From an uncultured Chloroflexota bacterium (GTDB lineage Bacteria > Chloroflexota > Dehalococcoidia > GIF9 > AB-539-J10): 64,000 nucleotides of DNA. Under the pieces are notes generated by a model. It saw nothing but the letters and a program-made list of their open reading frames with translations, was not told the origin of the DNA and ran no database searches. Shown here piece after piece: positions 2,839 to 42,803 of the stretch (its first letter is position 1; the number at the start of each line of letters is the position of its first letter). The stretch covers positions 34,086 through 98,085 of the forward strand of contig CAISEW010000041.1 of NCBI GenBank assembly GCA_903884455.1. The letters are read 5' to 3'. The translations under genes and the position numbers were made by a program.

Positions 2839-4401
2839 TTAGTAGTAGTAATGTGTTCTTCTCCTTATTACGAAAAAGTAAACCAGGGCGCCGATGAGCA
2901 CCACTATTGCGACTATGCTGGCAATGAATACCCATAGGGGCAGGAGTCCAGCATGTAAGGAACGGGCTGCGGTCCAGTTGCCTGCGTTCTCTGCTCTATC
3001 TACGGCTTGCACAATCCAGTAGTAGGTGCCATAAGGCAGGGCTTCTGTCGCATTCAAGGTATAGTTCGTTCCGACTATGTCCGGAACTGAAACTATGGGG
3101 TCAGCAAATCCTTCAGTGGTGATGTTGGCACTGGTCGCTATCTGCAGGCTATAGCGAACTCCACTGGGATCGGATACCGCCGACCATTCAAATGTCGGCC
3201 TCACCTTGCCTATGAATCCCACGCGGCTTCCGTCGGCTGGCGATTTGAGTTCCGGCACAGGTGGAGGGACTGATTCCATGGTGAAGTTGGCGGTGGCGTT
3301 GTTCCCGGCAGTATCGCCGGCTGTTACCGGGCGCTCGCCGTGTTGACTTTCAGGCACGGCAAAACTTGCCTCAAAGTTGCCGTTGTCGTTGGTTTCGGCT
3401 GTCGCTTTCTGGCTACCATCGTACTTTATGGACACATCTTCGGTGGCGGCAAATCCGCGACCGGTGACGGTCAGGTTTGTGCCCACGTGTCCTTCGTCAG
3501 GAGACAGCACGATGCCAGGCTCTATCTTGAAGCTGAGTGCAGTGATGGCGGCTTTTGGAGTCGATTCTCCGTAGGCAGTCACGTTATACGTGCCTTTGGG
3601 CATTTCGGGCACCTCGAAGCTTTTTTCCCAGTAACCTTCGTCGTCAGCATCAACCCTGATTTCTGTCCCCACTTCCTCTCCTGCAAATAATATCCTGATG
3701 TACCTGTCGTTAGCATAAAATCCGTTGCCTGTCATAGTTATGTTGTCGCCTACGGTGCCCGATGATTTATCCAGGCTTATCCCCGGCGTTACTTCGAAGG
3801 TGGCATCCTTGACTTGATAGAAGCTGCTGCTGGCACCCTGGGCGTCTATTTTATGGTTTCCCGTGGTGGAAGGAGGAATTTGGAAACTCCGCTGCCAATT
3901 GCCCGTGGCATTCGCCGTGATATTCCCTGGTATCGGTGCATAGCCGGTGCTATTGAGGTAATACCTCAGCTCGATGCCTGTTTCATTCTTGGCAAATCCA
4001 TGGCCTTGCACGGTAACATTAGTGCCCACAGGACCTTTGGCAGGACTTATTGTCAGCCCCGGCTTCACGGTAAAGTTTTCCGTAGCTTGAGGGGTAGTGT
4101 CTATATCAGCACGCACTTCGTGTGCGCCTTTGCAGCTTTCGGGAACGGTGAAGGTGACATTGAAGCTTCCCGTACTGGTGGTCTGGACATCTATCATCCA
4201 GTCCCCGGCATAGTAAATATCAACCCACTTACGAGCCGTAAAGTTATAGCCATAGACGGTAACCTCTGTTCCGGGCACTCCGTCACCGGGGTCGAGCGTG
4301 ATAGAAGGTCCTATGCCATCGGCTTGTGCAGGCGTAGCCGGCAGGGCCATAGCTACAAGGCAAACGATGAAAACAACCAGTAACCGAGATAGCACACGCA
4401 T
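2839..4401 (-). CDS. Secreted surface protein with IPT/TIG-like repeats and C-terminal TM anchor
   Basis: Signal peptide; repeated G-x-VGTNVTVxGxGF modules; C-terminal LLPLWVFIASIVAIVVLIGALVYFFVIRRRTHYYY. Confidence 0.75.
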   Translation of the reverse strand: MRVLSRLLVVFIVCLVAMALPATPAQADGIGPSITLDPGDGVPGTEVTVYGYNFTARKWVDIYYAGDWMIDVQTTSTGSFNVTFTVPESCKGAHEVRADIDTTPQATENFTVKPGLTISPAKGPVGTNVTVQGHGFAKNETGIELRYYLNSTGYAPIPGNITANATGNWQRSFQIPPSTTGNHKIDAQGASSSFYQVKDATFEVTPGISLDKSSGTVGDNITMTGNGFYANDRYIRILFAGEEVGTEIRVDADDEGYWEKSFEVPEMPKGTYNVTAYGESTPKAAITALSFKIEPGIVLSPDEGHVGTNLTVTGRGFAATEDVSIKYDGSQKATAETNDNGNFEASFAVPESQHGERPVTAGDTAGNNATANFTMESVPPPVPELKSPADGSRVGFIGKVRPTFEWSAVSDPSGVRYSLQIATSANITTEGFADPIVSVPDIVGTNYTLNATEALPYGTYYWIVQAVDRAENAGNWTAARSLHAGLLPLWVFIASIVAIVVLIGALVYFFVIRRRTHYYY

Positions 4402-34944: not shown

Positions 34945-35003
34945 CGGGTTTTTAGGCTGGTTAAATTTGATTTAATTCTCGCAGAAAAAAAGGAAACAGA
35001 GAG

Positions 35004-35040
35004 TGAGCCGTACAGGATTCGAACCTGTGACACCCTGATC
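35004..35040 (-). other. 3' fragment of a tRNA gene (tRNA-Lys-like), possible att-site remnant
   Basis: Minus strand GATCAGGGTGTCACAGGTTCGAATCCTGTACGGCTCA contains T-arm and 3' acceptor strand; no 5' half adjacent. Confidence 0.6.
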
Positions 35041-35334
35041 AGAAGATACAAAAAATATATCCCTGGGCGTGAAAAGAAGTAATTCCTGATACCTTTTTAC
35101 TGGCGATTTAGCTTCGATTTGTACCGCCAGGTCACTCTTGGTTTTTTATGGTGGGGAAAAATTCATTAGCAAAAATGTTGGCAAGTGACGATGGATTTAG
35201 GCAGAAACATAGACCGCCAAACAACTTAAAGTTGATAGTTATTGAATACAACGATTTAAAGTGTTAACATACTATGCTTGGAATAATAGAATCACTAGAT
35301 ATATATAGGCGCGAATAGTAGTGAGAGCAATGAA

Positions 35335-36582
35335 ATGACTGCGGAAATAGCAATACTAAATAAGGAGGCTGTAGCGTTAGCTGCGGACAGTGCGGTGACG
35401 GCTGGTGAAGGGGAAGGTATGAAGATATTCACTACAGGAAATAAGATATTTGAGCTGTCTCCGAAGATGCCTGTGGGTGTTATGGTGTATAACAATGCAC
35501 AATTCATTGGGGTGCCGTGGGAGACTATAATATGCGAGATACGTAAGCAAGTCCCAGCAGATGGATTCAAGAGTTTAGATGGATATATAAGATTATTCTT
35601 ATCGTACTTTGAAAAAGGGAGCTATCTATTTCCGGAGAAGAAACAAAGAACATATTTCATGGAGCATATATATTATTGCTGTTGGAGGACAAAAGATATA
35701 ATAGTTGAGAGAGTGGACAAGGAGCTTGAGAAGCGTAAGCCTCTGAGTGAAAGGTCGATTAAAATTCTAGTATCAAACGTAATTAGGGACGAATTGAATG
35801 ATTGGAGAAGTTTGGAGGAATATGAGAGGTCTTCATCTATCAAATTAAATATGGGTGGGGAATTGATAAAATACTATCGGAGTTCGATTCAACAAATTAT
35901 AGATACGGTCTTCCAAAAGATACCGATGTCTAAAGATACTAGGAAAAATATGTTCGAAATAATAAAGCGCTTCGTTTCGTATGGAACTGATGAAATACAA
36001 AATACAGGGATAGTAATTGCTGGTTTTGGTGAAGAAGAAGCGTTTCCTTCATTAAGGTCATTTATTTTTGACGGTCTATTTAATGGTAAGCTCAAGTATT
36101 CTAAGGGACCTAGGAGTGTTATTGGGGAAAATATTGCAGCGAGTATTTTCCCATTCGCACAAGGAGAGATGGTAGCTAGATTCATGGAAGGAGTAGACCC
36201 TGATTACCGGCAAGCTGAGCGAGATTTTATGTCAGAGTTATCAGAGAAATTTGCTGGTGCAATAGTGAAAAATTTAAAAAAATACAGTTCACGAGAAAAA
36301 GAGAATTTGTCAGCACAAATAAAAGATGAGTGTAAGAGAATATTCAATAATTATGACAAAGGCATGGATAGGGAGATAGAAGAACACTTTACTACTCCGA
36401 TAACAGGAGTTGTAGCGGTACTACCTAAAACTGAGATGGCCAAACTTGCCGAGGCATTAGTGAACCTAACCTCTATAAAGAGAAAATTTTCTAGTGTAAG
36501 TGAAACCGTAGCCGAACCAATAGATGTTGCAGTGATTAGTAAAAGTGACGGATTTGTATGGATAAAGAAGAAAAGTTACTAG
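35335..36582 (+). CDS. Proteasome-beta/HslV-like Ntn-hydrolase candidate
   Basis: M-TAEIAILNKEAVALAAD17SAVT...GNK36IFELSP: Thr after initiator Met, Asp at position 17 counted from Thr1, Lys in NKIFELSP. Confidence 0.5.
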   Translation: MTAEIAILNKEAVALAADSAVTAGEGEGMKIFTTGNKIFELSPKMPVGVMVYNNAQFIGVPWETIICEIRKQVPADGFKSLDGYIRLFLSYFEKGSYLFPEKKQRTYFMEHIYYCCWRTKDIIVERVDKELEKRKPLSERSIKILVSNVIRDELNDWRSLEEYERSSSIKLNMGGELIKYYRSSIQQIIDTVFQKIPMSKDTRKNMFEIIKRFVSYGTDEIQNTGIVIAGFGEEEAFPSLRSFIFDGLFNGKLKYSKGPRSVIGENIAASIFPFAQGEMVARFMEGVDPDYRQAERDFMSELSEKFAGAIVKNLKKYSSREKENLSAQIKDECKRIFNNYDKGMDREIEEHFTTPITGVVAVLPKTEMAKLAEALVNLTSIKRKFSSVSETVAEPIDVAVISKSDGFVWIKKKSY

Positions 36583-36607
36583 TGTACTTGAGGTAAAGGA
36601 GAGGGCA

Positions 36608-36778
36608 ATGCAGAAAACAAAAAATAGAAAACGTCTTATTTACAGCACCAGAGAATTTGAGAGAGCGTATCTCCCAAAGACAACAAAGAGGCTAGAAATT
36701 CCTGCTGGAAATAGCACGAGTGACTTTGGTGTTAATTTAGCAAAAAAGATTATGAGTAGAATAAATGTAAAAGTATAA
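36608..36778 (+). CDS. 56-aa basic protein MQKTKNRKRLIYSTREFERAYLPKTTKRLEIPAGNSTSDFGVNLAKKIMSRINVKV
   Basis: Manual translation; AAAGGAG RBS ~7 nt upstream; followed by terminator; below the ORF-track length cutoff. Confidence 0.6.
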   Translation: MQKTKNRKRLIYSTREFERAYLPKTTKRLEIPAGNSTSDFGVNLAKKIMSRINVKV

Positions 36779-36811
36779 TGAAACATTGCTACATTAGCAA
36801 TAACGATTGCT

Positions 36812-36843
36812 AAAAAGGCCCGCATTTTATGGGTCTTTTTTTA
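36812..36843 (+). terminator. Rho-independent terminator
   Basis: aaaaaggccc-gcattttat-gggtctttttttt; stem includes one G-U pair. Confidence 0.75.
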
Positions 36844-36873
36844 TACTACTTGACAAGGTGAACAGGCAGGGGC

Positions 36874-36980
36874 CTAGGCCCGCAGCATCTCCTTCTTCCG
36901 TAGCACCTTCTCTGCATCCTTCTTGGCACCGACCTTCTGGAATGTGACAAGTGCTTCATCGATTAAGAGATAGATGTACG
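36874..36980 (-). pseudogene. 3' remnant of a truncated gene
   Basis: Minus strand reads YIYLLIDEALVTFQKVGAKKDAEKVLRKKEMLRA*, with no room for a full gene before the tRNA. Confidence 0.4.
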
Positions 36981-36987
36981 TAAGAAA

Positions 36988-37061
36988 TGCCCCCAAGGGG
37001 ATTCGGACCCCTGATCTTCAGCTTGAAAGGCTGATGTCCTAGGCCGCTAGACGATGGGGGC
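36988..37061 (-). tRNA. tRNA-Glu (TTC)
   Basis: Minus strand GCCCCCATCGTCTAGCGGCCTAGGACATCAGCCTTTCAAGCTGAAGATCAGGGGTCCGAATCCCCTTGGGGGCA folds as a cloverleaf; anticodon loop CTTTCAA. Confidence 0.9.
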
Positions 37062-37333
37062 AACGTTAAGCATTTTACGGGTAAATGGCTAAATGTGCAA
37101 GGTCTGACTAAAGTATAGCTTGCTTCGGCTTGCTAATAACTTGGATATGAGGTATTATGTGGCGGTTGTTATGCCCACAACTGGTAATCTCAAACTGAAA
37201 GGAATTGTCCGAAAGCGCTAAGAACATGGGCTGGGCTGTTCGCTCTCGGTGATACCTGCGCTCTACTTGTTTGGTTTGAGAAAGGATGATTCTCGAGGTC
37301 AATGAATAGGACTCAAAAGGAGGTTTGATAAAT

Positions 37334-41738: not shown

Positions 41739-42803
41739 TTACGGCTGCCAGCTCAAGAAGGGATAGGTCACTCCATTGACGATATTCCAGATGTAGGCGG
41801 GGTTAGTCTGGTTCAGAGCGACTGCGGTTATGTTCCAGCTTGCCCCTGAGAAAGTGGTGATATTCTTCATTTCGGTGGTGGTCTTGCCTGTCCCGCCAGA
41901 TGAAGTAGCTTGTCCGCTGGTTTGGATGTCCCAGAAGGAGGTGCTCACAGTGCCACTATTGTCTCCCACCAGACCGCCAACTGACGAATTGCCAGTCGCG
42001 CTGCCGGTGGAATAGGAGTTGCTCACAGTGCCCGCATTACCTCCCACCAGACCGCCAACCCACTGATAGCCAGTGACGTTGCCGGTGGAATAGGAGTTGT
42101 TCACAGTGCCACTACTAGCTCCCACTAGACCGCCAACACCATAATAGCCAGTGACGTTGCCGGTGGAATAGGAGTTGCTCACAGTGGCGCCGTTACCTCC
42201 CACCAGACCGCCAACATGTCCCTGGCCGGTCACGCTGCCGCTGGAATAGGAGTTGCTCACAGTGCCTCCATTCAATCCCACCAGACCGCCAACCTCAGCG
42301 CTCCCGCCATTAACGTTGCTGCTGGAATAGGAGTTGCTCACAGTACCCACATTCACTCCCACCAGACCGCCAACACTCGAATTGCCAGTCACAGTGACGT
42401 TCACCACGCCGATATCTTCGATGCCCCCTCCCGTATTAACAATACCAAAAAGGCCGACATAATTCTCGTCAGGGCGGTTGCTAAACAGGTCACGTATCTC
42501 GTATTCTTGTCCGTCGAAAGTCCCGGTGAATGTGTTGTTCTGAGTTCCAATTGGCTGCCAACCCTTTCCCCCATTGGCTGTTGGGCTTGCCAGCTCAGTA
42601 TAACCGGCAGTAGTGGAATCGAGGTCGTTCATTAGAGTGTAATTGCCGCCCAAGTTGTTCCTGACGGCATCCAAATCATACCAGGTCCGTATTTCCAGGC
42701 TTCGGGAAGGAAAAAGAGAACAGCCTGCCATCCCGGCAATTAAGGCTACCATAATTAAAAGGATGCTAAGTCTTTTCACGCAACAGTTTAGTTTTTCCAA
42801 CAT
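41739..42803 (-). CDS. Lipoprotein with GLUG-motif repeats
   Basis: Lipobox-like IAGMAGCSL; ~6 repeats of GGLVGxNxGTVSNSYSTGNVTG. Confidence 0.8.
   Translation of the reverse strand: MLEKLNCCVKRLSILLIMVALIAGMAGCSLFPSRSLEIRTWYDLDAVRNNLGGNYTLMNDLDSTTAGYTELASPTANGGKGWQPIGTQNNTFTGTFDGQEYEIRDLFSNRPDENYVGLFGIVNTGGGIEDIGVVNVTVTGNSSVGGLVGVNVGTVSNSYSSSNVNGGSAEVGGLVGLNGGTVSNSYSSGSVTGQGHVGGLVGGNGATVSNSYSTGNVTGYYGVGGLVGASSGTVNNSYSTGNVTGYQWVGGLVGGNAGTVSNSYSTGSATGNSSVGGLVGDNSGTVSTSFWDIQTSGQATSSGGTGKTTTEMKNITTFSGASWNITAVALNQTNPAYIWNIVNGVTYPFLSWQP

Follow-up and report, generated by a model that had tools for sequence, protein, structure and literature searches.

The window, a stretch of 64,000 nucleotides from an uncultured Chloroflexota bacterium, carries an AT-rich foreign insert of 1.9 kb with two genes on the same strand, a large one for a protein of 415 amino acids and a small one of 56 codons (Table 1). 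The GC content is about 50% to the left of the insert and 45-48% just to its right. From left to right, the sequence shared with same-genus genomes ends just after a sigma-factor gene and is found again from tRNA-Glu on. Both the GC drop and the break in the same-genus sequence match agree with the AT-rich mini-island described in the first-pass annotation of this DNA.

Table 1. Positions of the genes, catalytic codons and flanking features in the window
Feature	Position	Strand	Remarks
tRNA-Lys(TTT), 3' half	35007..35045	-	95% identity with an intact tRNA-Lys that the closest same-genus genome (L098) has at this place
AT-rich foreign insert, 38-39% GC	35050..36960		same-genus match interrupted from near 34975-35050 to about 36967
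Predicted proteasome-like (PMI-4-type) Ntn-hydrolase gene	35335..36582	+	ORF of 415 aa
Catalytic-residue codon, Thr2	35338-35340	+	
Catalytic-residue codon, Asp18	35386-35388	+	
Catalytic-residue codon, Lys37	35443-35445	+	
Small partner ORF, MQKTKNRKRLIYSTREFERAYLPKTTKRLEIPAGNSTSDFGVNLAKKIMSRINVKV	36608..36778	+	56 aa; Shine-Dalgarno-like aaaggagaggg upstream
Terminator-like hairpin, then T run, 3' of the small ORF	36812..36845	+	read by eye
tRNA-Glu(TTC), host gene, right flank	36987..37062	-	beside the same downstream gene in relatives

The 3' remnant of tRNA-Lys is likely the scar of a tRNA-targeted integration. There is little in the insert besides the two genes, and no integrase was seen there. 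A second tRNA-Lys 3' fragment is present in the same genome (G000:C5:12401-12457, in L131 at 3402-3458); the two fragments agree at 93% of 57 nt, a stretch that extends beyond the tRNA itself, and ARAGORN found an intact tRNA-Lys at neither site, which suggests repeated integration at tRNA-Lys ends. The large gene is found in two of the 20 same-genus genomes searched, one of them the source genome, and is thus sporadic among the relatives of the host. Reading of the ORFs of 30-42 kb showed no HslU, Mpa/ARC or other proteasomal ATPase next to the large gene, as had been noted before. Further downstream (41739-42803) lies a lipoprotein-like ORF with many SVGGLVG...NSYS repeats, a GLUG-type repeat protein.

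Active site, fold and family of the large protein

The large protein starts with MTAEIAILNKEAVALAADSAVT and reads GNKIFELSP further on. Its candidate catalytic residues are Thr1, Asp17 and Lys36 when the initiator Met is removed (Thr2, Asp18 and Lys37 when it is counted), and the layout given in the first-pass annotation is exact in the translated ORF. All three positions are kept in an alignment of 45 diverse relatives, which are 26-38% identical to the window protein: 44 of them have Thr and one has Ser at residue 2, and Asp18 and Lys37 are present in every member. The Thr directly follows Met, so that members of the family have no propeptide. Asp18 matches position 17 of the proteasome beta subunit, as proposed. 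The correspondence proposed for the Lys, three residues late in an equivalent context, is borne out by the profile search described below, in which Lys37 aligns with Lys33 of Thermoplasma 20S beta. The offset amounts to a small loop insertion, since the equivalent Lys of the relative L025 is at mature position 33 exactly.

The likely equivalent of Gly47 (oxyanion hole), aligned by eye, is column 53, where 25 of the 45 members have Gly and 15 have Asn; the window protein also has Asn, the backbone amide of which could still act as oxyanion hole. Proteasome Ser129, Asp166 and Ser169 are not evidently kept in the family, where the aligned positions read PFAQ and S-E-T-V, and the chemistry may therefore differ in detail. 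The window copy has 393A and 394E in place of two glycines that are near-invariant in the 45-member alignment and lacks the conserved C-terminal F..LN tail of the family; for these reasons this copy may have diverged or may be in decay.

The AlphaFold model of the protein, built with an alignment, has a mean pLDDT of 91.3 and a pTM of 0.88. Its strands and helices follow one another as in a proteasome beta subunit and form an alpha-beta-beta-alpha sandwich, into which two helical insertions are placed at about residues 94-223 and 286-364. The inserted helices span 101-216 and 289-362, following H1/H2 and lying between H3 and H4, and the sandwich is closed by the last two strands (396-411). The protein is indeed about twice as long as a proteasome subunit, as stated earlier, but the helices, which had been assigned to a large C-terminal part, are two internal insertions in the model.

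Comparing the model to the PDB with Foldseek, all 31 matches at E < 0.001 are 20S proteasome entries, some with the proteasome in an assembly or regulator complex. The best matches are 20S subunits with a probability of 1.00, and yeast 4eu2_K is among the 20S comparisons. Anbu (PDB: 5nyw) follows at rank 43, and HslV is not among the PDB matches listed. Normalisation to the query gives low TM-scores of about 0.2-0.3, as is to be expected for a query of double the target length. The best match in a profile search of solved structures is Thermoplasma 20S beta (PDB: 1pma, E 3e-4), where profile positions 2-49 align to Thr1...Lys33-Leu-Phe and positions 387-403 to SGG-x-IDVAVI-x-x-DG. Position 17 is Glu in the Thermoplasma subunit and Asp in the family of the window protein. 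Searching the same structures with the single sequence (phmmer) gave only chance matches. The Proteasome family (Pfam: PF00227) is matched by seven of the 45 relatives, weakly (best E 2.4e-4), and is the only Pfam family with more than two of them matching; the window protein itself does not match it at the curated Pfam score, has only sub-threshold chance matches to Pfam otherwise and has no match in NCBIfam. Structure prediction, Foldseek, profile search and the invariant catalytic residues strongly support the original call of a proteasome-type Ntn-hydrolase, and the 415-residue product is predicted to be a real member of this fold.

The family had been taken for an undescribed one. This is not the case, as the protein fits a subfamily already in the literature. 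Fuchs, Alva and Lupas described 22 subfamilies of proteasome homologues in 2021 (PMC8665760), among which insertions at both sites, after H1/H2 and between H3/H4, are found only in PMI-3 and PMI-4 (Proteasome homolog with Multiple Insertions 4). PMI-4 is recorded from many bacterial phyla, Euryarchaeota and phages, and PMI-3 has no phage listing (Table 1 of PMC8665760). The model of the window protein has both insertions and its relatives occur in bacteria, archaea and phages, so it fits PMI-4 as matched on published architecture and distribution. The proteasome-like core, the Thr/Asp/Lys active site and the missing propeptide are shared as well. The conserved small ORF downstream goes beyond the published account, in which neither an informative genomic context nor AAA+ partners that co-occur with these homologues were reported (PMC8665760). 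Furthermore, PHROG 5990 (phrog_5990), with its function listed as unknown, matches residues 1-415 end to end (E 3.7e-97).

Several better known relatives can be compared with the window protein. The 20S beta subunits share the fold, Thr1, Lys33 and the C-terminal SGG-x-IDVAVI strand; the window protein differs from them by its double length, its two helical insertions, the lack of a propeptide, the absence of evident S129/D166/S169 and the lack of an alpha subunit. HslV is likewise a bacterial beta-like subunit without alpha subunits, but it does not have the two insertions, and HslU is missing here. Anbu belongs to the relatives of the PMI group in the cluster map of PMC8665760, but the only extension named for it there is a C-terminal helical one (H5), with no such insertions in the middle of the fold. 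Connectase, a monomeric proteasome-like protein ligase, has its specificity set by a helical insertion (PMC8665760), which in connectase is located between S3 and S4, and H1/H2 are absent; the insertions of the window protein lie elsewhere.

A small gene downstream and the genomic contexts of relatives

The 56-residue ORF begins 25 nt past the stop codon of the large gene and was overlooked in the first-pass annotation, which regarded the large gene as standing alone. Downstream regions were gathered for 49 clusters of relatives (60% identity), 44 of which had enough sequence. In 42 of the 44 clusters the large gene is followed by an ORF of 35-85 amino acids that is encoded by the same strand and has its start at -40 to +45 nt relative to the stop codon; the same holds for 72 of 230 control genes (31%; Fisher P 2e-16), the controls being other ORFs of at least 200 amino acids within the same loci. 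L018 and L003 lack the partner. The gene is thus not a solitary one. L018 (465 aa) was considered as a natural fusion of large and small protein and rejected, its extra tail being too short and unlike the partners. In Methanoregula (L005, 1764-3019) the large gene is split by a frameshift and the small downstream ORF is still present.

The small ORFs have a median length of 58 amino acids and a median offset of +3 nt from the stop, and 37 of 46 are preceded by a Shine-Dalgarno-like motif. Phage and plasmid records list several of them as CDSs in their own right. Three pairs of the same length had useful divergence; their pN/pS is 0.17-0.39, which indicates purifying selection on the small ORFs where it can be tested, and the large genes of the same pairs are held more tightly (0.10-0.16). 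The products are rich in Lys, Glu and Ser, hypervariable and almost unalignable across clades. Leave-one-out HMMs recovered homology of the small proteins within one firmicute-like group, and for the window and archaeal small proteins they did not demonstrate it; the score of the window partner is marginal, exceeding that of 98.6% of the shuffled decoys (28 of 2000 were higher). Common descent of all small partners is nevertheless likely. In a fused-chain model of the L025 pair, with the stop codon read as Gly, the small part is predicted to be disordered (pLDDT 33-45) apart from one C-terminal helix, and no confident docking on the large protein is seen. An aromatic-Phe-x-Leu-Pro motif is found in some of the small proteins (15, against 2.2 in shuffles), on which we do not rely, because it was picked after seeing the data and is clade-bound. 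We conclude that the large and the small gene form a conserved unit with a fast-evolving small product. The family being known, it is this partner, with its strong statistics, that appears to be new.

The relatives, roughly 26-43% identical, are located on archaeal and bacterial contigs, plasmids and phages, and 80 viral contigs of IMG/VR carry them. These 80 were found by an alignment-based scan; a scan of the viral contigs with the single sequence found none. In streptococcal satellite phages the pair makes up the last two genes before the end of the element, in prophage Javan85 the large gene is the last one, and in Providencia and Stenotrophomonas phages it is placed beside holin and lysozyme genes. 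Element ends and holin/lysozyme neighbourhoods are common sites of accessory cargo. The streptococcal satellite phages also have a conserved, toxin-antitoxin-like pair upstream of the gene, a protein of about 121 amino acids with a putative regulator (L008 8601-9252, L158 7851-8499, L159 4328-4979). In the solitary insertions L001, L002 and L004 the neighbours are ordinary host genes, so the argument for a defence island is weak.

Five rhizobial plasmids, four from Rhizobium and one from Mesorhizobium, carry the large gene within about 5 kb of genes for a multiubiquitin-domain protein and an E1-like ThiF protein, in two arrangements (L153, L157, L160, L161, L163). The three ThiF proteins that were tested match the E1-E2 models of PADLOC. 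The Rhizobium loci also have a ClpP-like protease and mostly DUF6527. For a relative of the proteasome such neighbours are suggestive, but they are bound to this clade and were not seen in Hyphomicrobiales UR115 (L162).

A proposed mobile two-gene cassette and its alternatives

The reading we prefer, at a probability of about one half, is that of a two-gene mobile cargo cassette, in which a PMI-4-type hydrolase and its small partner aid the element that carries them. Its basis is computed: the fold, the conserved residues, the pairing of the ORFs, purifying selection on some small ORFs and the spread on phages, satellites and plasmids. From here on we infer how the pair may work, that is, catalysis, an interaction of the two products and a role in competition between phages. 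Removal of Met would expose Thr1 without a propeptide, and the trio of Thr1, Asp17 and the Lys33 equivalent would form a catalytic centre, like that of the proteasome, for the attack on an amide bond. The helical insertions, which flank the active-site core in the model, probably restrict access and confer substrate selectivity. Insertions at these sites make a canonical stacked-ring barrel unlikely, and the large protein would most likely not be a bulk degrader but a specific hydrolase or transpeptidase that is small or forms no barrel. A proteasome-like protein need not be a protease, as the ligase connectase illustrates (PMC8665760). The second product, with 35-80 charged and largely disordered residues and a C-terminal helix, may be a substrate, regulator or adaptor of the hydrolase, and the cassette would benefit its carrier most plausibly against competing phages.

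Among the other explanations, a toxin-antitoxin-like pair, in which the hydrolase does harm unless its active-site cleft is occupied by the small disordered protein as an inhibitor, would go well with the two-gene layout, the tiny and fast-evolving second gene, the location in phages, satellites and plasmids and, if it is given any weight after its selection from the data, the aromatic-Phe-x-Leu-Pro motif. We regard it as unlikely, given that L018 and L003 do without the partner, that neither protein has a match in PADLOC-DB and that hypervariability would also be expected of a disordered substrate. The large protein might instead be a self-compartmentalising protease acting alone, in rings like those of HslV or BPH, with the small ORF as an assembly factor. 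Its catalytic triad and fold are those of 20S beta and HslV, and an assembly factor in trans is conceivable in a family without propeptides. This is quite improbable, however, as no ATPase is adjacent and as insertions at the two sites concerned, that of the pore loop and the one between H3 and H4, would hinder the assembly of rings and double rings, according to the authors of PMC8665760; by the same argument a ring would be less likely than a non-barrel assembly.

A Pup-like or ubiquitin-like system, in which the large protein would recognise the small one as a modifier or tag, is the least probable of the explanations and very doubtful. The small partner resembles Pup in its size, charge, predicted disorder and C-terminal helix, so that here too a small, charged, disordered product stands beside a proteasome-type gene, and the multiubiquitin and ThiF genes of the rhizobial plasmids point in the same direction. 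But the C-terminal GGE/GGQ signature is present in none of the 46 partners, on which ground the Pup reading was rejected, no ligase accompanies the cassette outside the rhizobial records, and the ubiquitin neighbours are confined to these records and missing already in UR115. For the window copy alone, a decaying relic without function has to be weighed. The loss of the two glycines and the C-terminal tail would fit with it, as would a solitary insert beside a tRNA scar in which no integrase was seen; yet neither ORF is broken, the small one has a good ribosome-binding site, and the large protein keeps its catalytic residues and predicted fold, so that we hold a relic to be rather improbable.

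Extending the preferred cassette reading to the whole family is more tentative. PMI-4 proteins may possibly not act alone but be the enzymes of a hitherto undescribed two-gene system carried by phages, satellites and plasmids. The hydrolase or transpeptidase would process a tiny, hypervariable and disordered protein, or be controlled by it, and the pair would help its carrier against rival elements. If the pair does act between phages, the proteasome fold would be in use in phage conflict; neither this nor a phage-defence role of proteasome homologues was found in the literature searched, from which subscription papers and preprints were mostly absent. The authors of PMC8665760 had no genomic context that hinted at the function of the non-proteasomal proteasome homologues; the conserved small gene next to the large one offers a concrete candidate for the substrate or regulator of PMI-4.
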